From NCBI GenBank assembly GCA_943787435.1, contig CALSMK010000017.1, positions 1 to 36,958 of the forward strand: DNA of 36,958 bases, read 5' to 3'. A model generated the notes under the pieces. It saw nothing but the letters and a program-made list of their open reading frames with translations. It did not search any database and was not told where the DNA came from. Each line of letters begins with the position of its first letter. Positions within the stretch are counted from its first letter, which is position 1. A program made the translations under genes and the position numbers. This DNA is from an uncultured Flavobacteriales bacterium (GTDB lineage: Bacteria; Bacteroidota; Bacteroidia; Flavobacteriales_D; Sanyastnellaceae). Positions 1 to 12,215 of this stretch are shown piece by piece.

Positions 1-1278
1 GCCACCGAGTTTTTCTTGGGCTTCGTAGAGGTCGACTGTGGCGCCGCGCTTGGCGAGTTCGAGTGCGGTGGACATGCCCGCTGGGCCGCCACCCACAACG
101 GCATAGCGGCCTTCAAGACCTTGTGGGGCGGCCTTGGTGAATTCTGTTTCGCGGCCAGCGCGCGGATTCACCACGCAGCCCGCCACTTGGCCCTTGAAGG
201 TGCGGTCGAGGCACGCCTGGTTGCATGCGATGCAGGTGTTGATCTCGCCCTCTCTGCCTTCGATGGCCTTGGCCATGATGTCGCCGTCGGCCAGCCAAGG
301 GCGGGCCATGGAGACGAGGTCGGCACAGCCGTCGGCCAGCACCTGCTCGGCCACCTCAGGCATGTTGATGCGGTTGGTGGTGACCAGCGGCAGGTCCACC
401 TGCCCCATGAGCTTTTTGGTGACCCAAGCGAATCCGGCGCGCGGCACCATGGCGGCGATCGTGGGGATGCGCGCCTCGTGCCAACCGATGCCCGTGTTGA
501 TGATGTCGGCACCAGCGGCCTCAATGATTTGGGCCTGTTCCACCACCTCGCCCCAGCCATTGCCCTCTTCTACGAGATCGAGCATGCTCAGGCGGTACAT
601 GATGGCGAAGTCTGGCCCGCAGGCCTGGCGGATGCGCGACACAATCTCCTCCGGAAACCGCACGCGGTTGGCGAAATCACCTCCCCAAGCGTCGGTCCTG
701 TGGTTCGTTTTCCGCACTAGGAATTGGTTGATGAGGTAGCCTTCGGAGCCCATGACTTCGACGCCGTCATAGCCGGCTTCGCGGGCCAGCACCGCACAGC
801 GCACGTAGGCCTGGATGGTCCGCTCCACACCTCGACCACTGAGGGCCCATGGGCTGAATTTGCTGATGGGCGCTTTGCCCTTGGAGGGCGCGACACAGAA
901 TGGGTGATAGCTGTACCGCCCGCCGTGCAGAATCTGCAGGGCAATGCGGCCTTCGGCTGCATGCACAGCATCGGTCACCTCCCGGTGCTTGGCGCTCTGG
1001 CTGGAACGCATAAGGGCTGCTCCATGGGGAGCGAGCTTGCCTGCGCGGTTGGGGCTGATGCCGCCTGTGACGATGAGCCCAGCGCCACCCTCGGCCCGCT
1101 CGGCATAGAACTTCGCGAGCTTGGTGAAGCCGCCCTGTTCTTCCTCGAGCCCCATGTGCATGGAGCCCATGATGGAGCGGTTGGGCATGGTCATGCCTGC
1201 CACCTCCAGCGGCTGCAACAAATGGGGGTACTTCGGATGTCGGGGTGCAGTTCCGGTCATGCCTCCAAGTTCGGACAT
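1..1278 (-). CDS. fadH: 2,4-dienoyl-CoA reductase-like NADH:flavin oxidoreductase (3' end outside window)
   Basis: About 426 N-terminal residues are visible; the gene runs off the left edge. Old-yellow-enzyme fold first: the N-terminal YPHLLQPLEVAGMTMPNR is the usual start of this family, followed by ILHGGRY and an active-site stretch GYDGVEVMGSEGYLINQF. Around residues 340-365 comes the iron-sulfur motif CIACNQAC, then 11 residues and a fourth Cys (C-x2-C-x3-C-x11-C), the 4Fe-4S signature of FadH/trimethylamine-dehydrogenase-type enzymes. Then a FAD/NAD(P) Rossmann motif GGGPAGMSTALELAKRG begins. FadH reduces 2,4-dienoyl-CoA during beta-oxidation of unsaturated fatty acids; related enzymes of the family act on other enones, so substrate is inferred. 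I chose the ATG at 1278, 29 nt after the stop of the preceding gene; an ATG at 1260 is an alternative. The reading frame is intact over the visible part. A decayed second copy of its 5' end lies at 3481-3660. Confidence 0.9.
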   Translation of the reverse strand, partial: MSELGGMTGTAPRHPKYPHLLQPLEVAGMTMPNRSIMGSMHMGLEEEQGGFTKLAKFYAERAEGGAGLIVTGGISPNRAGKLAPHGAALMRSSQSAKHREVTDAVHAAEGRIALQILHGGRYSYHPFCVAPSKGKAPISKFSPWALSGRGVERTIQAYVRCAVLAREAGYDGVEVMGSEGYLINQFLVRKTNHRTDAWGGDFANRVRFPEEIVSRIRQACGPDFAIMYRLSMLDLVEEGNGWGEVVEQAQIIEAAGADIINTGIGWHEARIPTIAAMVPRAGFAWVTKKLMGQVDLPLVTTNRINMPEVAEQVLADGCADLVSMARPWLADGDIMAKAIEGREGEINTCIACNQACLDRTFKGQVAGCVVNPRAGRETEFTKAAPQGLEGRYAVVGGGPAGMSTALELAKRGATVDLYEAQEKLGG

Positions 1279-1307
1279 CTCATGGAACTCCCCGCAGGCA
1301 CTTGGTT

Positions 1308-1598
1308 TCAATCCGGGGCGCAAGCTTCGCCAAACATCCCGAGCAATTCCAAGATGTCTTCGACGCCCACAATGCCATCGCCCGTCACGTCCTCGGAGCA
1401 AGACGCGTTTTCCAAAACACACTGCTGCAAGGCCACCGACCATGCGGTTCCTTCCCCACACAGTCCATGGTAAGTGCACGAGCCATCGTCGGTGACCGCC
1501 TGAGGGTTGTAATTGTCGGCAATCGACACGGTACAACCCTGTTCATTTGAGTCCAATGCCGACCAATCCACGTCACGCGTGACGGAAAAAAAGGCCAT
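1308..1598 (-). CDS. C-terminal piece of FG-GAP/ASPIC-UnbV protein copy A (after frameshift)
   Basis: This frame continues copy A beyond a frameshift at the run of seven A (seven T on the coding strand) at 1586-1592. Its sequence, from VDWSALDSNEQGCTVSIADN to the end, aligns residue by residue with the last ~90 residues of intact copy B. It holds a Cys-rich motif of the type NYNPxAxxDDGSCxY and a final dockerin-like segment DVTGDGIVGVEDILELLGMF ending in a Cys four residues from the C-terminus. The ATG that opens this frame is an internal Met-like artefact and probably not a real start. With six T instead of seven, the two pieces fuse into one protein of about 688 residues. Confidence 0.7.
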   Translation of the reverse strand: MAFFSVTRDVDWSALDSNEQGCTVSIADNYNPQAVTDDGSCTYHGLCGEGTAWSVALQQCVLENASCSEDVTGDGIVGVEDILELLGMFGEACAPD

Positions 1599-3375
1599 TC
1601 AACCAGGACCACTCAAAAGATGTCTCCTGACCGTTCAGCACCACCACCACTGTGCTGTCCACGGGCTGTCCATTCATGGTGAGACTGGTCCATTTGGGCG
1701 GAGCAGAAAGCAACAATTCGACAGAGTCCCCCGACAAAGTTTGCCCCAAAGAAATGCCGATGTCTTCTTGTTGCTCTACGAATTGATAGGCACTGTCTGC
1801 CACCAAATCATAGACCACGGTGCGGTCACCGTTGGGCCAAAACAGCTCGAGTGAGTCGGCCGTTTGCGCCGTACCAAGACCGAAGAATTGAGTCGCGCTG
1901 TGCTGAACGTACAAATCCTCTCCGGCACGAAGCGTGCGCATTTGAAGGTGGCCTCCCGCATGGAGCACCATCCGCGTTCCGATGGCCTCTGAGTTGGACC
2001 ACGAGCCGCACACTCCAACCGTGAGTGCATGGTGGTCCGCTTGTTCTGTCCCGGACTGATTGGTCCAAAATTCCGCAAATTGTCCAGGGCCCACACCCAC
2101 CACATCGGGGCGCAAATCCCCGTCGAGGTCGCCTCGGGCAATGGTGTAGAGCAACACATTGCTTCCTTCCCAATCCTCCAGCATGTCCACAAAGGGGGTA
2201 TTCTCCCCCAAACCTGCGCCAGGATGCTGGAACAAGTAATTGTCGTCGAATTCTGGGTAGGTCGATCCTGCGATAACAAACGGCGAAGTAGAGACCATCA
2301 GATCCTCCCACCCATCCGAATTGTAATCCACCCACATACTCCCCCAAGCCCAACGCTGGGTGTTCAACCCCAATTCTGCCGAACGCTCGTCGAACGACCC
2401 AGAATCGTTGCGGTCAAAAAAAGCCCCCGTCAGCTGTTCAGACTCGTAGTTCGGATCGTCTGTGTCTTGGTTCGACACGAACAGCTCCTCCTCTCCGTCA
2501 GCGTCGGGATCTCCTATGGTCAAGCACATCGACGACATCGAAACATCCAGTCCCAAGGCCGCACCGGATTCAGTGAATGTGCCATCTCCATTGTTCATGT
2601 AGGCCTGATTGACAATGGCGTCACCGGCCGAGCACCACTCTACTCCATAATCGTTAATGACCACCAAGTCCAAGAGCAAGTCATCATTCAAATGCAACCA
2701 AGCCCCTTGGAAAGAAGGCTGCATCCCACTTGCAATTCCCGCCGATTGGGAAACGTCCTCAAACAGGTTGTCCCCTTGATGCAAGAGCACGTTTTCGGAA
2801 AGCCATGTGTTCTGACATGGAAGCGCATAAACCGGCACCATGGCGTCCAATTTCCCATCCAAGTCCATGTCAGCAAAAGACATCCCCGTGCATGCCCGAT
2901 TTTGCAATACATCCCATCCCCATTCCGAGGTTCGGTTCACGTACCCATCGTTCTCCTTGATCCAGATTTGTCCCGCAGACAATTGCCCTGTCCCTGTGGT
3001 GTAAGACAAGACCATTGCTGCTGTGTGCACAAAATCTCGGTCTCCGTCGTTGTCTATGTCCAACCACATCATGGAGGTTGGACGACCCGTCCCCTTGACA
3101 ATGCCCAAGTCAACTTCGGTCCAGCCCTCTGGTCCACCTTGGTAAAATTTAAACTGACCTCCGGGATCTGTCATGGTTAAATCATCCCACCCATCTTGGT
3201 TGAAATCCACCAAACTCATCCCCTCGCCCGTAAAGTCCGTGTATGCCTCGAGCAACGGATTGGGCTCAGTGAAGGACCATTGAGCCGATGAAGCAACCGA
3301 CTGCCCCACAAAAAATAGGAGTGTAGCAAAGCCGCGCAAAAGAGACTGCCTTCTTCTGATTTCGCCCAACTTCAT
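1573..3375 (-). CDS. Secreted FG-GAP (VCBS) repeat protein with ASPIC/UnbV domain, copy A, frameshifted near 3' end
   Basis: A Sec signal peptide (residues 1-31, ending SSAQ) is followed by about seven FG-GAP/VCBS blades with Ca-binding D-x-[DN]-x-D-G-x-x-D loops, for example VDFNQDGWDDL, LDIDNDGDRDF, ADMDLDGKLDA, GDPDADGEEEL and VDYNSDGWEDL; these build a beta-propeller. Then an ASPIC/UnbV domain follows (AIGTRMVLHAGG to LFWPNGDRTVVYDLVADSAY). The chain ends early at NGLFFRHA because of an extra T in a T7 run at 1586-1592; the rest is encoded in the next frame down to 1308. The product is expected on the cell surface or secreted; its ligand is unknown. It is a tandem paralogue of 3672-5726. 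Start at 3375 is supported by a -7-like box 4 nt upstream that is also conserved before copy B. A run of 15 G lies just upstream of the promoter. Confidence 0.85.
   Translation of the reverse strand: MKLGEIRRRQSLLRGFATLLFFVGQSVASSAQWSFTEPNPLLEAYTDFTGEGMSLVDFNQDGWDDLTMTDPGGQFKFYQGGPEGWTEVDLGIVKGTGRPTSMMWLDIDNDGDRDFVHTAAMVLSYTTGTGQLSAGQIWIKENDGYVNRTSEWGWDVLQNRACTGMSFADMDLDGKLDAMVPVYALPCQNTWLSENVLLHQGDNLFEDVSQSAGIASGMQPSFQGAWLHLNDDLLLDLVVINDYGVEWCSAGDAIVNQAYMNNGDGTFTESGAALGLDVSMSSMCLTIGDPDADGEEELFVSNQDTDDPNYESEQLTGAFFDRNDSGSFDERSAELGLNTQRWAWGSMWVDYNSDGWEDLMVSTSPFVIAGSTYPEFDDNYLFQHPGAGLGENTPFVDMLEDWEGSNVLLYTIARGDLDGDLRPDVVGVGPGQFAEFWTNQSGTEQADHHALTVGVCGSWSNSEAIGTRMVLHAGGHLQMRTLRAGEDLYVQHSATQFFGLGTAQTADSLELFWPNGDRTVVYDLVADSAYQFVEQQEDIGISLGQTLSGDSVELLLSAPPKWTSLTMNGQPVDSTVVVVLNGQETSFEWSWLNGLFFRHA
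1814..1913 (-). repeat. Near-identical 100-bp tract shared with 4177-4276
   Basis: Over these 100 bases copy A and copy B of the FG-GAP/ASPIC-UnbV genes differ at one position (gta versus gca inside the Val/Ala codon of FGLGTAQ/FGLGAAQ). The flanking coding sequence differs far more, roughly one base in five by eye. The tract encodes the core of the ASPIC/UnbV domain (DRTVVYD back to DLYVQHS). The sharp edges suggest a recent gene-conversion patch between the tandem genes. Confidence 0.7.
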
Positions 3376-3379
3376 GCTT

Positions 3380-3387
3380 TAAAAATA
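3380..3387 (-). promoter_or_regulatory. -7-like box of copy A
   Basis: The coding-strand octamer TATTTTTA lies 4 nt before the ATG at 3375. It differs from the Bacteroidota -7 consensus TAnnTTTG only at the last base. The longer block ATAATGTGTAYTTTTA is conserved before copy B at 5732-5739, although the sequence on both sides has diverged, which supports a regulatory role. Confidence 0.5.
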
Positions 3388-3400
3388 CACATTATAAACC

Positions 3401-3415
3401 GGGGGGGGGGGGGGG
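3401..3415. repeat. Homopolymer of 15 G (C15 on the coding strand of copy A)
   Basis: Fifteen consecutive G on the plus strand sit 25 nt upstream of the start of copy A and 13 nt upstream of its -7-like box, roughly where a -33 element would lie. Copy B has no such tract in the aligned position; it has a short mixed C-rich spacer there. Tracts of this length slip readily during replication, so it is a candidate for promoter phase variation. The exact length in an assembly is uncertain. Confidence 0.85.
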
Positions 3416-3421
3416 ATTTCG

Positions 3422-3490
3422 TCAGTCCAACTCCAGAAACCAGTCGGCAAACTCTTTTGCACGCGAACGAGAGGGCAAAATCTGGGCCAC
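3422..3490 (-). pseudogene. Remnant of the 3' end of the large exported protein gene
   Basis: Read on the minus strand this encodes LPSRSRAKEFADWFLELD and a stop codon at 3422-3424. It aligns with LPSRSRRNEFVDRFPEFD and the stop of the gene at 5766-6743. Only about 20 codons survive, fused upstream to fadH-derived sequence at a short shared stretch (AGATTTTGCC / AGATTCTGCC). It marks the downstream edge of one unit of the tandem duplication. Confidence 0.8.
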
Positions 3491-3660
3491 AGGCATGTCA
3501 GATGCGAGAAACCACCTCCTTCGGAACCCGCCATGATGGACCGGCTGGGAGCGGTCATGCCTGCCACTTCAAGCGGCTACAACAAATGAGGATTCTTCGG
3601 TTGTCGGGGCGCAGTTCCGGCCATGCTCCCAAGTTCGGACAACCCGTGGAACTCCTCGCG
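3481..3660 (-). pseudogene. Decayed, internally deleted copy of the fadH 5' region
   Basis: The minus strand matches the start of fadH (coordinates about 1310 down to 1170), then jumps to sequence matching fadH at about 660 to 610; about 510 bp are missing between. The start codon is changed to TTG (3640-3642), and an in-frame TAG at 3577-3579 replaces the Gln codon of HLLQPLEV. Still recognisable are PHLL-stop-PLEVAGMTAPSR and SIMAGS. The piece follows copy B exactly as intact fadH follows copy A, so it is the fadH duplicate, now dead. Confidence 0.85.
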
Positions 3661-3671
3661 GTCACTTGGTT

Positions 3672-5726
3672 TCAATCTGGAACACAAGCTTCGCCAAACA
3701 TCCCGAGCAATTCCAAGATGTCTTCGACGCCAACAATGCCGTCGCCCGTTACGTCTTCCGCGCAGGAAGCATTTTCTAATACGCATTGCTGAAGTGCAAT
3801 CGACCATGTCGTGCCCTCTCCGCACAGTCCCGCATAGGTGCACGAACCATCGTCTGATTCGGCCAATGGGTTGTAGTTGTCTGCAATGGAGATGGTGCAC
3901 CCCACTTGGGAAATCCCAAAAGCAGCCCAATCCACCTCCCTGTTCACCACAAACAGCCCATTCAACCATGACCATTCAAAGGACGTGGCCTGCCCAACTG
4001 GCACCACCACCGAAGCGGTGTCCAAAGGCTGTCCATTCCACGTCAGGTTGGTCCATTTGGGCGGAGCGGTCAGGAACAGCTCGATGGAGTCTCCCGACAA
4101 AAGCTCTCCTACAGAAATCGAAATGCTCTCCTGTTTTTCTACGAACCGATAGGCACTGTCTGCAGCCAGATCATACACCACGGTGCGGTCACCGTTGGGC
4201 CAAAACAGCTCGAGTGAGTCGGCCGTTTGCGCCGCACCAAGACCGAAGAATTGAGTCGCGCTGTGCTGAACGTACAGGTCTTCACCTGCCCGAAGCGTTC
4301 GCATCTGAGGGTGGCCTCCCGCATGAAGCACCATCCGCGTTCCAATGGCTTCTGAATTGGAGAATGTACCGCACACCCCCACCGTCATCCCATGATGATC
4401 AGGTTGGTCGGCTCCAGACTGGTTGGTCCAAAACTCCGCGAATTGTCCAGGCCCCACACCCACCACATCGGGCCGCAAGTCGCCGTTGATGTCTCCTCGG
4501 GCCATGGTGTAGAGCAGCGCGTTGCCTCCCTCCCAATCGCCAAGCGATTCCACAAAAGGTGCATTGCCACCCAAGCCGGCACCGGGGTGCTGAAACAAAT
4601 AATTGTCATCAAACTCGGGGTATTCAGCCGCTCCAAAAATGAATGGAGAGGTAGAAATCATGAGGTCTTCCCAGCCATCAGAATTGTAGTCCACCCACAT
4701 GCCTCCCCATGACCAACGTTCAGTGTTCAATCCAACTTCAGCGGAGCGCTCCTCATACCAACCCGTGTCATTGCGGTCGAAATAGGCTCCTGTGAGCTGG
4801 TCGTGGGGATAGTCGTTGCCGGTGTCTTGATTGGAAACATAGAACTCCTCCTCTCCGTCTCCATCTGGATCTCCAATGGTGATGCTCATGGCCGACATCG
4901 AAACGTCCAACCCCAATTCTGCTCCTGATTCTGTGAAGGTGCCATCCCCATTGTTGGTGTAGGCAAAATTGTAGGTGTCACAATAGATCTCGATGCCTGC
5001 GTCGTTGATGACGAGCAAGTCCAAGAGGGAGTCGCCGTTGAGGTGCAACCAAGTTCCTTGAAATGAAGGCTGAAAGCCATTGGCCAAGCCCGAAGTCTGG
5101 GAAATATCTGAGAACGTGGTTCCCTCATGAGAAAACAAGGCGTTTTCTGTAGCCCAAATCCCTTGGCAAGGCAAAGAATAAATCGGCACCATGAGATCCA
5201 AGTCACCGTCTACATCCATGTCCGCAAACGCCATTCCAGAGCAGAAGCGGTTCTCCAGCACATCGAATCCCCATTCCAAGGTGCGGTCCACATAGCCTTC
5301 CTCCTCGCAGATCCACACTTGACTCTTGGACACCTCGCCCGCCCCAAAAAACAGCGAAAACTCCATGGAAGCCGTGTGCACAAAGTCCCTGTCTCCATCA
5401 TTGTCGATGTCCAGCCACATCAACGACATTGGGACACCGCTGGAACGGGTGATGCCCAAATCAACCAACGTGAAGCCCCCTGGACCTCCTTCATAAAAAC
5501 GAAGATCTCCCGATGGATTCGTGAGGGTCAAGTCGTCCCAACCATCTTGGTTGAAGTCCACAAAACTGATGCCTTCACCCACGAATTCTGTGTAGGCTTC
5601 AAGCATGGGATTGGGATCGGTCGAAGACCATTGAGCCCAAACGCTCAGCGGCAGAACCAGACACAAAAAGAGCAGGGCCAAACCTTGATTGACCCGCCTA
5701 TTGAACATGGTTAAGCGCCTCCCCAT
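3672..5726 (-). CDS. Secreted FG-GAP (VCBS) repeat protein with ASPIC/UnbV domain, copy B (intact)
   Basis: 684 residues. A signal peptide (GLALLFLCLVLPLSVWAQ) is followed by about seven FG-GAP blades with Ca-binding loops (VDFNQDGWDDL, LDIDNDGDRDF, ADMDVDGDLDL, GDPDGDGEEEF, VDYNSDGWEDL, GDINGDLRPDV). An ASPIC/UnbV domain follows at roughly residues 450-530 (AIGTRMVLHAGG; LFWPNGDRTVVYD). A Cys-rich tail (GCTISIADNYNPLAESDDG) ends in a dockerin-like segment DVTGDGIVGVEDILELLGMF and a final GEACVPD. There is no canonical T9SS type A or B sorting domain; the dockerin-like end may serve for export or anchoring (inference). A longer reading from 5744 is possible, but that ATG lies inside the conserved promoter block; alignment with copy A favours the ATG at 5726, and 5708 is a third option. 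Likely a surface protein; ligand unknown. Confidence 0.88.
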   Translation of the reverse strand: MGRRLTMFNRRVNQGLALLFLCLVLPLSVWAQWSSTDPNPMLEAYTEFVGEGISFVDFNQDGWDDLTLTNPSGDLRFYEGGPGGFTLVDLGITRSSGVPMSLMWLDIDNDGDRDFVHTASMEFSLFFGAGEVSKSQVWICEEEGYVDRTLEWGFDVLENRFCSGMAFADMDVDGDLDLMVPIYSLPCQGIWATENALFSHEGTTFSDISQTSGLANGFQPSFQGTWLHLNGDSLLDLLVINDAGIEIYCDTYNFAYTNNGDGTFTESGAELGLDVSMSAMSITIGDPDGDGEEEFYVSNQDTGNDYPHDQLTGAYFDRNDTGWYEERSAEVGLNTERWSWGGMWVDYNSDGWEDLMISTSPFIFGAAEYPEFDDNYLFQHPGAGLGGNAPFVESLGDWEGGNALLYTMARGDINGDLRPDVVGVGPGQFAEFWTNQSGADQPDHHGMTVGVCGTFSNSEAIGTRMVLHAGGHPQMRTLRAGEDLYVQHSATQFFGLGAAQTADSLELFWPNGDRTVVYDLAADSAYRFVEKQESISISVGELLSGDSIELFLTAPPKWTNLTWNGQPLDTASVVVPVGQATSFEWSWLNGLFVVNREVDWAAFGISQVGCTISIADNYNPLAESDDGSCTYAGLCGEGTTWSIALQQCVLENASCAEDVTGDGIVGVEDILELLGMFGEACVPD

Positions 5727-5731
5727 GCGCG

Positions 5732-5739
5732 TAAAAGTA
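5732..5739 (-). promoter_or_regulatory. -7-like box of copy B
   Basis: The coding-strand octamer TACTTTTA lies 5 nt upstream of the ATG at 5726 and matches TAnnTTTG except for the last base. It is in the same position and context as the box before copy A. It argues that 5726, not 5744, is the translation start. Confidence 0.5.
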
Positions 5740-5765
5740 CACATTATGGGGCTGGCGCGATTGGT

Positions 5766-6743
5766 TTAGTCAAACTCTGGAAACCGGTCTACAAATTCGT
5801 TTCTGCGCGAACGAGAGGGCAGAATCTGATAAATGAAGCGTTGGTCACCCTCTTTGATTCTGCGCTTGTCGTCCTTGAGTTCTGTGATGAGATCGATGAA
5901 GGCTTGGTCCTTGGAAGTGACATTCATAACCCCATTGCGGTATTCAAAATGGTACCAATTTTCTTCATCGAGGTGCAGATACATGCGCAAAATCCCTGTT
6001 CCCGCTATGCCCCACTCGATTCGGCCAGGTATGCGCCTGAACACCGGCTGCTTGTCCATGGACACAATGCCAATGCCGTTTTCACCGCTGATGAAGGATT
6101 CTTCACTCGCATCCCAAGACAGGTCCAACCCGGTCATCAGCATCCTGTGCTGAATGCTCGCGGGGGTCTTTTTGAAGGCCCCCATCAAGGTCATGCCGCC
6201 CAAAACCTCATCGGCACCTTCCAAGCCCAACCACTCTCGAAGGGCTGGCTCGAACGTGGTTTGGGTCACATCCAATGGAATGGCCGTGGGCCAAGCCAAG
6301 ATTCTTTCGGCCAATGCCTTCCAAATGTTGTCGTCGAAGGGAAAATCCATGCCCACAGTGAGCGCCGCTTCCATCCCGGTTCCCGTGGGGAACACCTTCA
6401 CTGAACCGGCTGTGCGCTGGGTGAGCAATCCATAATCCACGGGCAGCTGGACCGGCCCCGAGCCCGTGACTTCACATTGGCCTGCGACCAATTCTATCAG
6501 GGTGCCTGGCAAATTGGGCTGGAGCATCTTTTCGGGGGTGCCCGCCTGGTATTTCCCCTCGCGTTTGTCGTACCGCAATTCACCCGCTGCGGCCAAAATT
6601 GGATACTCATCGTGGCTTCGAACCTCATCGACAAAAGCGCCGTAAGGGCCGCCGCCAGGCTCATCCACATCTCTCAAGTAAGCCCCAATTCCCAGGTGCT
6701 CCATCAAGGGAGTCCTCATGGCTGAGTCGATGGGAATGCGCAC
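5766..6743 (-). CDS. C-terminal part of large uncharacterised exported protein (other frame)
   Basis: 325 codons opening with GTG, in the -1 frame relative to the gene at 6716-10264 and overlapping its end by 28 bp. The upstream chain reads VIDPK and this frame continues DVRIPIDSAMRTPLMEHLG, so one protein of about 1,500 residues is the likely original product. The break coincides with CCCAAAG (6746-6752, minus strand); one extra C would restore the frame, and so would a -1 slip on this heptamer. The sequence ends with a basic stretch SRSRRNEF before the stop. No catalytic motif is recognised. A relic of its last 20 codons lies at 3422-3490. Whether the GTG is ever used as an independent start cannot be told. 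Confidence 0.7.
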   Translation of the reverse strand: MRIPIDSAMRTPLMEHLGIGAYLRDVDEPGGGPYGAFVDEVRSHDEYPILAAAGELRYDKREGKYQAGTPEKMLQPNLPGTLIELVAGQCEVTGSGPVQLPVDYGLLTQRTAGSVKVFPTGTGMEAALTVGMDFPFDDNIWKALAERILAWPTAIPLDVTQTTFEPALREWLGLEGADEVLGGMTLMGAFKKTPASIQHRMLMTGLDLSWDASEESFISGENGIGIVSMDKQPVFRRIPGRIEWGIAGTGILRMYLHLDEENWYHFEYRNGVMNVTSKDQAFIDLITELKDDKRRIKEGDQRFIYQILPSRSRRNEFVDRFPEFD

Positions 6744-9700
6744 ATCTTTGGGTCAATCACTGCCTCAAACAGCAATTGTTGTTGGTCCGTCTCAGGACAT
6801 GCCGCTTCCAACGAAACCGCCCCGTCAAAATTCAAATGCTGCCGTGCCGCCGCCAGGTGAACCGCTCCAGAAAACCCGAAAAATGGACTCAACCCAAAAC
6901 CATCTTGGACAGGAATGGTCCCCTGCCCAATGGTCTCGCCGCTCGTGTCTACCTCCACCTGCTGTAGCCGAATGAGCTGCTCCAAACCATTTTCATCCTT
7001 GTAGAAGACACTGGCCGTGGCCTCGTAGTCAAAACGGCCAAGGATGTTCACATCGGCATCGAACAATCGGTGGTGACGGGAGACCACATTGGCTACAATC
7101 ACCGCCCGGGACAATTGATCCATTTGGGCCCTTTTCCGGACCACCACTTGACCACTGTCGGGCTCCACAAAGGCGTCGGCTGTGCGAATGAACTTCACAC
7201 TTTCACAGCGAATCACCGATTCGGAGACGTCGTAGATGGCCTTGGGCGCCAAGAAATTCAAGCTGTCTTGATCACCCCGAGTAGAGTAGAAGTTGGACTT
7301 GGACACCGCGTCATCTGTATCGATCACAAAGTCGGTCATGGGCTCTCGTCCAGAGCTCATTTCCAATTTGTCTTTGTCCATGAACCATTTGAACTCGTCC
7401 ATGTAGCACAGGTATTGATTCGCCGGCAGCTCAATCATGGTTTCGCCGTCGTTGCTCGCGAATTCACCAATGCGCGAATCAAAATCAATGACACAATGGA
7501 CATTGTCGGTTTTGAAGGCCAGGGCACCTTCCACCATTTGATCCAATTGAAATCCAGCCGTGTCTGCCATGATTCGACGACGGTCGTACTCAAACAAGTC
7601 CGAGGAGAGCGAGGCCCCTTGGAAACGCATGCTCCCCTTTCCTGTCATGCCTTTCTTTCCAAGTGTCAATCCCCCAGTCAACTCACTTTCTCCCTCAAAA
7701 AACCGCAGAGGAACATCTTGGGTGGTGGCCGAAATCTGCTTTTGTCGGGGCTCAAACAGAACGAAAACGTTTTCTCCTTGCACCTCAGGAACTGGCGGCG
7801 GTCCTGCTGACTCAGCGTTGGAAAAAACTTGAGCCAGCCCTTTTGTGCTGTCGGGAAGCAACACAAATCGATCACTTTCGGCATGGGCCGTTTCAAAGGC
7901 CAATCGCCCGCCCCCTTGCAATCCTCCTCCGTTCAAAGTCAGGTCCTGGTCAAAGGTTCCTGCCCCCCCATAAACGCTGTATCCACCTGCTGGTGTTGAA
8001 GTTTGGAACCCAAAGTAATCGTCATCCATCACCCTCAACTGTTCATTCAGCGGAGGCAGCAAATCCCCCGACTCCAATGTTCCATCAAACATCAATTCGC
8101 GGCGGCCCAATGCGTCGAGGCTGTCCAAGGTGAAGGGCTCCACCACAAACCGAAAACGTTCGCGCTCATATGCTCCATTTTCTATGGCAGCATTGTCCCA
8201 AAAAACATAGCTGGGCTGATCGGTGACCAACACCGGGTACTCCGGATACAATTCACTCAGCCTTCCCGACCGGTTGATGGGAACATCCACCCTCAAAACG
8301 CCTTGAACGTTGGACATTTCGTTGCGCACCCTTTTTCGTTTGGGACGTCCTCGAGCATCGCGCTCCTCCTCGTTCACCTTGAATTTGCAGCGCTCAACAG
8401 CGTTCAATTCGATGGAGAAAGAGGCATAATCAAACTCGTAATCAGAGCCGTCAAACTGAAGGTTCCCTGCCCGAACACCTCCGCCAAATTGAAAATCTCG
8501 GTCCTCACCAATGACCACGCGTCCATTTCGAGGCTCAATCACCACGCCCCTGTCTTTGGACACGTCCACGCGTGAAACCCCGTCCAAGGTCAGTTGCAGA
8601 TTGAGCAAACTGATTTCTCCGTGGGCTACACCTGCAGCTTCGGAGCGAAAGAACAGGACGTCATGGTCGCGCCTCCCCGCAGCACTGGCCAGGTGAGCAA
8701 ACAATTTTTCGGTTGCCGTGGCGACGCGCAAATCAAGGTCCATTTCGAGGTAGCCTTCATGGGCGAGTCGGATCATCATGGCCCTGGTCTTCTCTTCACT
8801 TAACCTGAAGCTAGAAGCCAATTGAAGGCTTGTGAACGTGCTGTCACCTGCACCCCTCACGTGGTTGAGAACCCTCACCAAAGGGTGCACCGGGTCTATG
8901 CCTTGCATGGTCTGAAACATGCGCTTGTCGAAAAAATCCTCGCTGAACAAGGTGGCCGTGGAGCGACTGGCACCTGGGGGGCCCTCCAATCGAAGCCGGG
9001 TTTCGTTCATCTTCCAAGACACGACCGAACAATCCACCGAAACACCATGGTGACTGTCTTTGAACGGCTGTGGGCCCAAACCTTCGTCGGACCGAACCAA
9101 AGACAGGCGCTGGGCCGCCAAGTTGAAGCGCAAATTCAATTCCGGGTGATGGAGGCTGTCTTCACCCAACCGAACCACGGCGCGGACCCCCACTCCACTG
9201 AATTGATCCGATTTTAAGATGAACAACTTGGACTTGCACTGGACGAGCACGGTGTCCCCTCTTCGAAAATCCAATGTAGCGGGCATTTCTTCGCTGCCCT
9301 TGCCTTGCAACTCTGCACCACGAACCGTCAAGCCTCCCTGGAAGTCCACACCTGGAACAATGTCGGGCATGCTCAAACGGTTGACATAGGTATCAAATCT
9401 GGGGTAGCGAGAGGCCTCAGAGGCCAACCCGGTTTTTTCGTCGCGCTTTCTGGCCCGCGCTTTATCGGTCAATTGGCCCACCAGAGGATCTGGAAACAAT
9501 TCTGTGGTGAACCGCGCTGAGTCCACCGTTAAGCTGGGGGACTTCAGCCGGATCGAGAAGGCATCAAAATCTGCGAAATTCTGTGCAGGGTCCCAGCCAG
9601 AACGTCCCCAATCCACACGGCCACTTCGGCCGTAAAACCGCCCTTCAGACACGTCGTATTCTCCACCGGTGCGCTTGACTTGTAGCGTATCTCCTTTGGC

Positions 9701-10264
9701 CAATCCCATCAAAGTTCCCGTCGGGCCCAGAAAAATTCTGGGCGCTCCTTTCTCAGGAAGGGAAATCGCCATGGGCCCTTCAAAACGCCATGTCACACTG
9801 CCCGATTGATAGAAAACACCGTCCAACAAAAACTCCTTGCCCGAGGCCAGCAAGGGAGAAAAGTCAGAAGCCGTCTTTCTTTTTTCTAAGGAGCGCTCAA
9901 CGGCTGCATCCCATGCCGCAAAAGGCACCCGGAGAGAATCACCCGACAATGCTGCTTGTACGCTTCGCGCATAGCCGAATTTTTCGGGAAACGCCCCAAG
10001 GTTTCGTTCCTTCATTTGAGCCAACCTCTGGATGAACACAGAGGTGATCGCGGTATCCGACTTCGGATTCAGCATCAAAGGCTTGAGCTTCCTGTCCAAG
10101 AAGCGAGCCGCATCCTTGTCAAAAGGCTCCACAGCCTTGGACAGCTCATCCACTGCTTTTTCCAAGGCCACCAAATCGAGCTCCATGTTTTGACACACCG
10201 CAGGAAATGCGGAACACAGAAACAAAGCCGCAAGGGCCGTCAGACGGATGCAATTCTTCTTCAT
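6716..10264 (-). CDS. Large uncharacterised exported protein, N-terminal ~1,180 residues
   Basis: Starts with a signal peptide (MKKNCIRLTALAALFLCSAF, cleavage near AVCQ); a longer reading from 10402 would bury it, so I place the start at 10264. From memory it resembles a widespread Bacteroidota family of ~1,500-residue proteins of unknown function, with conserved-looking stretches such as RYPRFDTYVNRLSMPDIVPG, LRLVRSDEG-like segments and repeated beta-rich FxFGGxVxAGxxxF units (QFGGGVRAGNLQFDGSDYEF). A helical segment near residues 500-570 (LASSFRLSEEKTRAMMIRLA, followed by HEGYLEMDL) resembles a winged-helix fold, odd for an exported protein. The frame breaks at 6746-6752 and the rest is at 5766-6743. 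Likely periplasmic or outer-surface; function unknown. It is transcribed away from 10323 and stands upstream of the duplicated FG-GAP genes on the same strand. Confidence 0.8.
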   Translation of the reverse strand: MKKNCIRLTALAALFLCSAFPAVCQNMELDLVALEKAVDELSKAVEPFDKDAARFLDRKLKPLMLNPKSDTAITSVFIQRLAQMKERNLGAFPEKFGYARSVQAALSGDSLRVPFAAWDAAVERSLEKRKTASDFSPLLASGKEFLLDGVFYQSGSVTWRFEGPMAISLPEKGAPRIFLGPTGTLMGLAKGDTLQVKRTGGEYDVSEGRFYGRSGRVDWGRSGWDPAQNFADFDAFSIRLKSPSLTVDSARFTTELFPDPLVGQLTDKARARKRDEKTGLASEASRYPRFDTYVNRLSMPDIVPGVDFQGGLTVRGAELQGKGSEEMPATLDFRRGDTVLVQCKSKLFILKSDQFSGVGVRAVVRLGEDSLHHPELNLRFNLAAQRLSLVRSDEGLGPQPFKDSHHGVSVDCSVVSWKMNETRLRLEGPPGASRSTATLFSEDFFDKRMFQTMQGIDPVHPLVRVLNHVRGAGDSTFTSLQLASSFRLSEEKTRAMMIRLAHEGYLEMDLDLRVATATEKLFAHLASAAGRRDHDVLFFRSEAAGVAHGEISLLNLQLTLDGVSRVDVSKDRGVVIEPRNGRVVIGEDRDFQFGGGVRAGNLQFDGSDYEFDYASFSIELNAVERCKFKVNEEERDARGRPKRKRVRNEMSNVQGVLRVDVPINRSGRLSELYPEYPVLVTDQPSYVFWDNAAIENGAYERERFRFVVEPFTLDSLDALGRRELMFDGTLESGDLLPPLNEQLRVMDDDYFGFQTSTPAGGYSVYGGAGTFDQDLTLNGGGLQGGGRLAFETAHAESDRFVLLPDSTKGLAQVFSNAESAGPPPVPEVQGENVFVLFEPRQKQISATTQDVPLRFFEGESELTGGLTLGKKGMTGKGSMRFQGASLSSDLFEYDRRRIMADTAGFQLDQMVEGALAFKTDNVHCVIDFDSRIGEFASNDGETMIELPANQYLCYMDEFKWFMDKDKLEMSSGREPMTDFVIDTDDAVSKSNFYSTRGDQDSLNFLAPKAIYDVSESVIRCESVKFIRTADAFVEPDSGQVVVRKRAQMDQLSRAVIVANVVSRHHRLFDADVNILGRFDYEATASVFYKDENGLEQLIRLQQVEVDTSGETIGQGTIPVQDGFGLSPFFGFSGAVHLAAARQHLNFDGAVSLEAACPETDQQQLLFEAVIDPKMCAFPSTQP

Positions 10265-10322
10265 GGAACTCAAGCCGAAAAATAAACGTCCCGAAAGCGC
10301 TCGCGGTATCTTGCAGCCTTCG

Positions 10323-12215
10323 ATGTTCCAACTGTTTCGCACAATCCAGTCCCGGCCCCAGTTGGTGCCCAGGTGGGTCATCTTCCTGATTGACCTGTCC
10401 ATGGGGGTTGTGGCATTGGGCTTGGCCTATGCTGTGCGCTTTGAATTTGCCCCTCCAGCCCATGAGCTCGAGGCAGCCCGACAGTTTTTGCCTGGCTATC
10501 TCATCGCACGCAGTTTGTCCATGTTGGTTTTTCGCACTTACGCTGGAATCATCAGGTTCAGCGGTAGCCGAGACGCCAGAAGGGTCCTGTTGGCCTTGGC
10601 TTTTGGCTCCTCCCTTTTCATTGCCATGGACATTGCCGCAGGCAGCATGGGGATGACCTACCCCATTCCACTGAGCGTAGCCGCCATTGAACTTCTGGCG
10701 TCCTCGGTGCTCCTGATCGGATTCCGAATCGCAGTCCGATCGATCTATGAACGCTTCCAGACGTCGCGCCCCACCCCTGTGGTCATTTTCGGAGCGGGCG
10801 AGGCTGGCATCATCACCAAGCAAGCGGTTGAACGTCCAAGCTCAGACCCCATGAAGGTCATTGCGTTCCTCGACGATGACCCATCCAAGCACGGCAAAAG
10901 AATCGATGGCGCGCCCATCCATCCCGCCAATGACGCTTCTCGCATTTTGGGCAGCCAGAATGCCAAGCGGCTCATTGTCTCCATCCAAAACTTAGACCCC
11001 GCGCGAAAGGCCAAAGTGGTGGACGCTGCACTCAATGTCGGATTGCGCGTCATGGACGTGCCCCCTGCCCAACGATGGATCCAAGGCGAATTGAGTGCAG
11101 GACAATTGAGAGATGCTCGAATCGAAGATCTGCTGGGTCGACCCGTCATTGAACTGGACGCCACAGCCATTGCTGAACAAGTAAAAAACGCCCGAATTGT
11201 GGTGACGGGAGGTGCGGGATCCATCGGCTCTGAATTGGTCATGCAGTCCTTGGAACGGGGAGCCGCTGAAGTTCTCGCCCTGGACACTGCAGAAACCCCT
11301 CTGCACGATTTGGGACTCATGGCCCGAACCCGACTTGGAGACAAGGCTTCCCGACTGATCACCAGAATCACAGACGTTCGGGACGCTTCTGGAATCCAAT
11401 CCACTTTGGCAGAATTCAAACCCGACTTGGTCTATCACGCTGCCGCTTACAAGCATGTCCCCGTGATGGAGTCTCAACCAGAAGAGGCTTGGCACACCAA
11501 TGTCATCGGCACCACCTGCACCTTGAATGCCGCAAAAAAGGCAGGCGTCAGCACCTTTGTTTTGGTGAGCACAGACAAAGCCGTCAATCCCTCGAGCGTG
11601 ATGGGGGCATCCAAGAGAATGGCCGAACTCGCTGTCCGAAGTTTTGGAGAAGACGGCCCCATGAAGTGCGTCATTACCCGGTTTGGCAATGTGCTCGACA
11701 GCAATGGAAGCGTCATCCCTTTGTTCAAACGACAAATTCAAGCCGGTGGTCCCATCACCCTGACCCACCCCGAAGTCACCCGTTATTTCATGACCATCCC
11801 CGAAGCGGTGCAATTGGTGATGGAAGCTGCTGCCACGAGCGCTGGGGATGATATTTTTGTGTTCGATATGGGCGAAAGGGTCCGGATTGCAGACTTGGCC
11901 AACCGGATGATTCGGCTGGCGGGCATGGTGGAAAACCAAGACATTGACATTGACATCGTTGGGCTGCGTCCTGGCGAAAAACTCCACGAAGAGCTGATGA
12001 GTGGCCAAGAAAACTTGCTCCCCACGCATCACCCCAAAATCTTGCGGGCAGCCAGAGCTGATGTGGACAGAGAGGCCGTAAGGTCAACCATCAACACCAG
12101 CCTTGAAGCCTTGCCCACCATGGGCTGGAAAGCCCAAGAAGTCCGGGAGGCCTTTTCTCGACACTTGCCAGAATACCACCCTGCTGAATCCTCCATCCAA
12201 ACCACGGACCAATGA
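10323..12215 (+). CDS. Nucleoside-diphosphate-sugar 4,6-dehydratase/epimerase, WbpM/PglF/CapD type
   Basis: 630 residues. The N-terminal membrane region includes RWVIFLIDLSMGVVALGLAY and further hydrophobic helices. A first Rossmann-like domain follows at ~153 (VVIFGAGEAG, then FLDDDPSKHG), then the catalytic SDR domain at ~292 (VVTGGAGSIGSELV). Other family marks are YHAAAYKHVPVMESQPEEA, the VSTDKAVNP loop (~415) and the catalytic M-x3-K in VMGASKR (~425), where Met replaces the usual Tyr as in WbpM/PglF. These membrane enzymes convert UDP-GlcNAc or related sugars to 4-keto-6-deoxy sugars for surface polysaccharide or glycoprotein glycans. I use the ATG at 10323 because the longer frame from 10248 overlaps the divergent gene and adds no family sequence. 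It overlaps the next gene by 4 bp (ATGA). Confidence 0.93.
   Translation: MFQLFRTIQSRPQLVPRWVIFLIDLSMGVVALGLAYAVRFEFAPPAHELEAARQFLPGYLIARSLSMLVFRTYAGIIRFSGSRDARRVLLALAFGSSLFIAMDIAAGSMGMTYPIPLSVAAIELLASSVLLIGFRIAVRSIYERFQTSRPTPVVIFGAGEAGIITKQAVERPSSDPMKVIAFLDDDPSKHGKRIDGAPIHPANDASRILGSQNAKRLIVSIQNLDPARKAKVVDAALNVGLRVMDVPPAQRWIQGELSAGQLRDARIEDLLGRPVIELDATAIAEQVKNARIVVTGGAGSIGSELVMQSLERGAAEVLALDTAETPLHDLGLMARTRLGDKASRLITRITDVRDASGIQSTLAEFKPDLVYHAAAYKHVPVMESQPEEAWHTNVIGTTCTLNAAKKAGVSTFVLVSTDKAVNPSSVMGASKRMAELAVRSFGEDGPMKCVITRFGNVLDSNGSVIPLFKRQIQAGGPITLTHPEVTRYFMTIPEAVQLVMEAAATSAGDDIFVFDMGERVRIADLANRMIRLAGMVENQDIDIDIVGLRPGEKLHEELMSGQENLLPTHHPKILRAARADVDREAVRSTINTSLEALPTMGWKAQEVREAFSRHLPEYHPAESSIQTTDQ

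Follow-up and report, generated by a model that had tools for sequence, protein, structure and literature searches.

Gene content of the FG-GAP locus

The stretch of DNA analyzed here, which we refer to as the window, is 36,958 nucleotides long and represents contig C17 of the draft genome of an uncultured Flavobacteriales bacterium (34 contigs, 2.12 Mb, 78.5% complete). Near its start, two copies of a gene encoding an FG-GAP/ASPIC-UnbV protein lie between a large gene and fadH. All of these genes are on the minus strand, in the order large gene, FG-GAP copy A, spacer, FG-GAP copy B and fadH. The native large gene (5766..10402), which forms the upstream flank of the repeat described below, is not assigned to a family, as no Pfam or NCBIfam match was found at E<=0.01. 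It is assembled as two overlapping open reading frames (ORFs; 6716-10402 and 5766-6743) with a frameshift near 6716-6743, and it forms one unbroken frame in G016, a genome of the same genus and the nearest relative found. At the other end, the gene for a fadH/OYE-family oxidoreductase (1..1278; Pfam Oxidored_FMN, 8.9e-77) runs off the window; against NCBIfam TIGR03997 the protein, which is incomplete at the window edge, scores 295 bits and thus falls under the cut-off of 793. The initial annotation had described both neighbours of the FG-GAP gene as lost, which we did not find: fadH is open over its whole visible part (1-1278), and the large gene is complete but for the one frameshift.

FG-GAP repeats and a UnbV_ASPIC domain score above the gathering thresholds in both copies. 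Copy A (3672..5744) has a reading frame that is open across 690 codons (Pfam FG-GAP_3, 1.2e-24; UnbV_ASPIC, 1.6e-11). Judging from the hydrophobic N-terminus and the type of domain, the protein is predicted to be secreted. Copy B (1308..3375) is divided into two ORFs (1573-3375 and 1308-1598) by a +1 frameshift at a run of seven T (window 1586-1592), where G016 has six. Downstream of the break, the 90 codons compared encode the same amino acids as in G016 (100%), so that the extra T probably stems from an error in sequencing or arose very recently. The same agreement, together with a ratio of nonsynonymous to synonymous divergence (dN/dS) of about 0.2 between copy B and G016 (0.072/0.35), argues that copy B was constrained until recently. 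The earlier statement that both copies were kept needs qualifying, because the assembled frame of copy B is interrupted; the dN/dS ratio gives a weak indication of the selection for the surface protein that had been proposed on this basis.

We also noted a run of 15 G (3401..3415; C on the coding strand) between the large-gene relic described below and copy B, 25 nt ahead of the start codon of the latter. It is the sole homopolymer of at least 10 nt in the window and in 539,207 sampled bases of the same genome, and could possibly be an expression switch or an artefact. In addition, residues ~612-690 of copy A (window 3672-3910) form a C-terminal domain of about 75 residues with the pattern ADNYNPxAxxDDGSCTY...LCGEGT...LQQCV...DVTGDGxVGVxDILELLGxFG. 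It has no Pfam or NCBIfam match at E<=0.01, and it matches, in whole or in part, 26 further places in the genome at E<=0.001 (window and the end of contig C7 excluded), so that we regard it as a candidate sorting or anchoring domain of this lineage. With regard to the beta-propeller fold of FG-GAP proteins, the predicted structure of copy A is beta-rich but of low confidence (mean predicted local distance difference test score, pLDDT, 54; predicted template modelling score, pTM, 0.49), and was not used.

The direct repeat and its joint

The unit composed of the large-gene tail, the FG-GAP/ASPIC gene and the start of fadH is present twice. When window positions 1150-3500 were aligned with 3514-5850, 1718 of 2306 columns (74.5%) were identical. 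Between the two FG-GAP copies, positions 3422-3642 are a fusion of a 21-codon large-gene tail with the 5' end of fadH, the latter carrying an internal deletion. In other words, this is a direct repeat in which the joint fuses the two ends of the unit, as in a segmental tandem duplication.

Three relic pieces can be distinguished at the joint, all on the minus strand. The large-gene relic (3422..3484) comprises the last 21 codons including the stop codon; it reads QILPSRSRAKEFADWFLELD followed by the stop, against QILPSRSRRNEFVDRFPEFD followed by the stop in the native gene, and 50 of its 63 nt are identical to the native sequence. Of the 16 residues that do not vary among the native gene and nine congeners (G009 aside), four are changed in the relic; with G009 counted, the figure is three of 13. 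The fadH relic proper (3531..3642) corresponds to the first 37 codons, with a TTG start and an in-frame TAG, and an inner fadH piece (3484..3530) matches positions 613-660 of the fadH gene in the window, behind the deletion. Measured against nine fadH sequences, this deletion spans 503-511 bp. The local alignment scores of the relics were 62, 132 and 39, compared with maxima of 24, 33 and 29 among 1000 dinucleotide shuffles each; the inner fadH piece is the weakest of the three matches, yet it lies at the expected position. The repeat, the composition of the spacer, the in-frame TAG and a deletion of about 510 bp had all been reported in the initial annotation and are borne out here. The TTG had been taken there as a decayed ATG. 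However, fadH begins with TTG in five of the six congeners checked (G016, G008, G011, G010 and G014; G003 has ATG), so that TTG is the usual start codon and not a sign of decay.

The fusion point is the motif CAGAyTTTGCC (3474..3484, minus strand), which is common to fadH and the large gene. In G016, the two source sequences, CAGACTTTGCC in fadH and CAGATTTTGCC in the large gene, are identical at 10 of 11 nt. A duplication at short homology typically leaves such a picture. A passage of a report on an engineered Escherichia coli system states that microhomology borders of 9 bp suffice for tandem duplication (PMC11111574). When window 3380-3690 was used as a query against the 16 other genomes of the genus, seven showed matches, each in the fadH part, and nine showed none. 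G016 also matched in the inner-fadH and large-gene parts, but at separate places.

We then compared the slot between the large gene and fadH among these 16 congeners. The order large gene, FG-GAP gene and fadH with one FG-GAP gene was found in eight (G016, G003, G011, G008, G013, G010, G001 and G006), which agrees with the single-copy state that would be expected of close relatives. G014 and G009 have the large gene and fadH close together without an FG-GAP gene between them, G012 has the FG-GAP gene on a short contig without fadH, and the state of the slot was not assignable in five (G002, G004, G005, G007 and G015). The slot is variable in the genus: an extra coding stretch is present between the FG-GAP gene and fadH in G003, G008 and G010, and a similar one replaces the FG-GAP gene in G014 (L079 8.5-9.6 kb, L081 6.3-8.1 kb, L082 0.7-1.8 kb and L169 0.7-1.7 kb). 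Its start may be dockerin-like, and its end may resemble the Fibrobacter major paralogous family.

Across 114 genomes of the family, the FG-GAP gene was found at E<=1e-100 in 10, the window genome included, all of them in one genus, and two copies occur in the window genome only. A search of the window genome itself returned an apparent third copy on contig C7 (81372-82096), which was rejected as such: it is a contig end that overlaps window 1-2059 and is in register with G016. We treated it as an overlapping contig end of poor quality or variant sequence, and built nothing on it; in principle, it might still represent a third copy in its own right, with a variant form of the 3' part of the FG-GAP gene plus fadH. 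In the numbering of the C7 stretch (L086), positions 6061-8098 overlap the window start at 92.6%, as in a strain variant or a poor consensus.

Copy B and the G016 lineage

If copies A and B had arisen simply by duplication, each should be the closest relative of the other. We calculated the proportion of synonymous differences (pS) and the synonymous divergence (dS) by Nei-Gojobori counts, and built a protein tree using residues 1-597 of copy B. The tree has the topology (A,(B,G016)) with a bootstrap support of 100. Forcing A and B to be sisters lowered the log-likelihood by 62.5 and was rejected (approximately unbiased test, p = 3e-7). Hence copies A and B are not each other's closest relatives.

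The divergence values point in the same direction. Between copy B and G016 pS is 0.28, against 0.65 both for A and G016 and for A and B; dS between A and B is 1.53. The FG-GAP gene shows a pS of 0.65-0.83 in all 36 species pairs, with copy A representing the window genome, and 15 native ORFs to the right of the repeat gave 0.64-0.82 against G016. For the large gene, pS against G016 was 0.78-0.82. We also examined 46 control ORFs from eight of the 23 stretches on other contigs, leaving out matches to L102, matches below 60% identity and L127, which matched L102 alone. Shadow ORFs, one of them in the window (10748-11431, pS 0.60), and matches to a repeated domain were also left out. Their median pS against G016 was 0.71; five of the 46 were below 0.45 (on contigs C13 and C1), and one was at or below 0.28. 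Given that 0.65 is ordinary and 0.28 anomalous against the background of both genus and genome, copy A is the resident ortholog, by divergence as well as by position, and copy B groups with another species against the background of its own genome, as a xenolog does. The two genes should thus not be classed as plain duplicates; a duplicated slot in which one copy was later replaced would account for them.

We initially considered the closeness of fadH to G016 (pS 0.31) as further evidence of import, and dropped it, since fadH is slow genus-wide, with a pS of 0.20-0.64 among 10 genomes of the genus (G009 aside). The synonymous divergence of fadH is low in most species pairs (0.20 between G011 and G014), although the neighbouring large gene is near saturation; either strong constraint or frequent exchange could produce this.

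Two shorter tracts were also found. In the first (3531..3749, minus strand), which was recognized by two-state segmentation and site pattern and which covers the 3' tip of copy A, the intergenic region and the start of the fadH relic, identity to G016 is 91%, against 74% further upstream (Fisher p 5e-7; the two segments of low divergence have 12 nt in common). More sites in it are common with G016 than with copy B, and another exchange has probably reached the 3' tip of copy A and the fadH relic. Two-state segmentation also marks 7,460 of 55,400 control bases as G016-like, which may comprise conserved as well as exchanged genes, and our inference therefore leans on pS. The second is a tract of 105 nt in copy A (4170..4274, minus strand) that pairs with 1807..1911 of copy B (minus strand) with only two differences. 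It is 98% identical, whereas the rest of A and B is 70% identical, and none of 2000 codon-column permutations equalled it; among congeners the tract is hardly special (63% conserved, against 60% elsewhere). The two copies have traded sequence by gene conversion, most simply within one cell. Because both are near G016 in the tract (eight and six differences), the likely direction of conversion is from B to A.

Tracts close to G016 (pS 0.19-0.41) also occur on otherwise diverged contigs, namely L133 (C13) 2734-3542 and 9442-11979 and L093 (C1) 11639-12037. This suggests either more exchange with the G016 lineage or strong constraint, and closeness to that lineage is thus not confined to the contig end that carries copy B. 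An rRNA operon was considered for the high-identity tract on C13 and rejected, as L133 8500-12500 gave no Rfam match at gathering scores. One 18-kb stretch searched against G016 gave three matches, of which one was long (2 kb).

History of the locus and known systems

The relics at the joint allow the age of the duplication to be compared with that of the alleles. If the large-gene relic were as old as the split between A and B, it would keep about 52% identity to the native gene (a hand estimate with half of dS on the relic branch), and the binomial probability of at least 50 identical positions among 63 would be 6e-6, provided that the relic drifted neutrally and was not repaired afterwards by conversion. 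The relic is thus far less diverged than A and B are, which argues that the duplication is younger than the alleles it now holds and that the sequence of copy B came from outside. The relic also appears to switch from native to foreign along its length. Its 5' part, GCCCTCTCGTTCGCG, is the same as in the native gene and has five differences in G016. Fifteen sites in the tail differ between the native gene and G016; among the first 13, seven are native, two are as in G016 and four match neither, while the last two informative sites, like the CGAAA behind the stop codon, agree with G016. The pattern suggests a joint formed from the resident large gene, and a later replacement by foreign DNA of copy B and of the region in front of it, as far as about the stop codon.

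On these grounds we favor, with moderate confidence, a fairly recent tandem duplication at short homology, after which an allele like that of G016 replaced the downstream copy. A resident locus of large gene, FG-GAP gene and fadH would have undergone tandem duplication, the new joint forming at CAGAyTTTGCC and linking fadH, at about codon 213, to the large-gene tail, to give large-A-fadH' followed by large'-A'-fadH (primes denoting the new partial or second copies). The truncated fadH' and large' would then have decayed through the stop codon, the deletion of ~505-510 bp and substitutions at invariant residues. A sister species similar to G016 may have supplied the DNA by which homologous recombination swapped A' for the foreign allele B, together with the region upstream of copy B and the last ~17 nt of large'; smaller exchanges would have reached copy A, at its 3' tip together with fadH' and in the 105-bp tract shared with B. 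As a result, a single cell would carry two diverged alleles of the gene for one FG-GAP-repeat protein that is predicted to be secreted. Of this history, the repeat, its relics, the short homology at the joint, the grouping of copy B with G016 and the tract common to A and B are observed, whereas we infer in which order the events took place, which way the DNA was transferred and that homologous recombination was the route. The initial annotation had read the locus as the stepwise duplication of a surface gene. The segmental tandem duplication with two relics at its fusion stands, but A and B did not diverge from each other afterwards; because B is sister to the gene of another species and the relic is too young, that account requires the import of a foreign allele.

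Several points weigh against this history. The switch within the relic is read from 15 sites, four of which match neither parent, and over the whole 63 nt the relic has 50 positions identical to the native gene and 47 to G016. The present fadH and large gene of the window genome share just 8 of 11 nt at the joint. Copy B differs from G016, the nearest among the gene-bearing congeners, by 10-12% in nucleotides, and G016 is best regarded as its nearest sampled kin and not as its donor. Copy B is also heterogeneous: positions 2389-2644 are just 78% identical to G016, and 3292-3484, which hold the start of copy B, the G15 tract and the large-gene relic, are 73.5% identical. Since fadH is slow, the evidence for import is that of copy B by itself, and for the same reason the fadH share of tract 3531-3749 is weak evidence. 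Finally, copy B lies at most 3.4 kb from a contig end of a draft genome, which was examined as assembled contigs.

Among the alternatives, the one that survives best is a single insertion of foreign DNA from a G016-like species, which would have recombined by homology on the side of fadH and been joined through short homology at the opposite end, so that the repeat and copy B would have arrived together and the resident gene would never have been duplicated. It needs fewer events, and both the short homology at the joint and the switch from ~74% to ~90% similarity to G016 near it are in its favor. However, the large-gene relic resembles the native gene in its 5' part (GCCCTCTCGTTCGCG), and the G016-like state of the fadH relic and the tip of copy A would require extra switches. 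Therefore, we consider a single insertion unlikely, while giving it more weight than the other alternatives. We also considered whether contigs of two species had been joined artificially at 3484-3530. The draft state of the assembly (34 contigs) and the position of copy B near a contig end would fit such a chimera, as would the neighbouring end of C7, which overlaps window 1-2059 at just 92.6% with many small indels and belongs to a contig in which several genes are frame-broken. Nevertheless, both pieces at the joint are decayed (four of 16 invariant residues in large', G009 aside; a stop codon and the ~505-510-bp deletion in fadH'), they have only ~11 nt of common sequence, the conversion tract implies that A and B were once in one cell, and similar G016-like tracts occur on other contigs, so that an artificial join seems improbable. 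Still less probable is the scheme of the initial annotation with differential loss added, namely an old duplication in one lineage with divergence of A and B and later loss of A in G016, which would give the same topology (A,(B,G016)) but leaves the large-gene relic far too little diverged, finds the divergence between A and G016 as expected for orthologs, and would still need a transfer of B to explain a pS of 0.28 to G016 where neighbouring native ORFs have 0.64-0.82.

Beyond the duplication followed by replacement that we favor, it is tempting, if quite speculative, to regard the slot as a site of surface-protein exchange, which would hold the FG-GAP gene, the FG-GAP gene with another secreted protein, or the other protein alone, with alleles swapped between species via the conserved fadH side. 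The window genome would then carry two tract-trading alleles at once, and the variable G/C run before one of them might act as an expression switch.

Two related genes side by side in a genome are commonly interpreted as the products of duplication and later divergence. In this case, what remains between the copies indicates a pair that arose more recently than its members diverged, and hence a difference that was imported. Relics of this kind can thus serve as a clock for telling genuine paralogs from alleles that were swapped in, and they warn against taking how far a tandem pair has diverged as a measure of its age. The locus, predicted to encode a surface protein, also points to DNA exchange between species of a single uncultured genus of marine bacteria. 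Our literature searches found no description of this locus.

Each element of this history has a known counterpart. In bacterial tandem duplication at short homologies, that is, by illegitimate recombination, there is likewise a single joint, marked by a short repeat, at which a 3' portion of one flank is fused to a 5' portion of the opposite flank; unlike in those cases, the downstream copy here is a foreign allele and not a copy of the upstream one. Homology-facilitated illegitimate recombination takes up foreign DNA through homology on one side and short homology on the other, as might be supposed here, but the large-gene relic is native-looking at its 5' end and the joint is probably older than the foreign DNA. 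Xenologs or pseudoparalogs represent the growth of a family via transfer rather than duplication. As in those cases, one genome holds two divergent members of which one came from another lineage; the difference is that here the foreign gene occupies a duplicated slot next to the resident one, and that relics mark the joint. A passage of one report presents the Rap-Phr family as a case that has grown by transfer rather than duplication (PMC5199041). Thus, each element is already known, and what is notable is the clean record of both steps at one spot.

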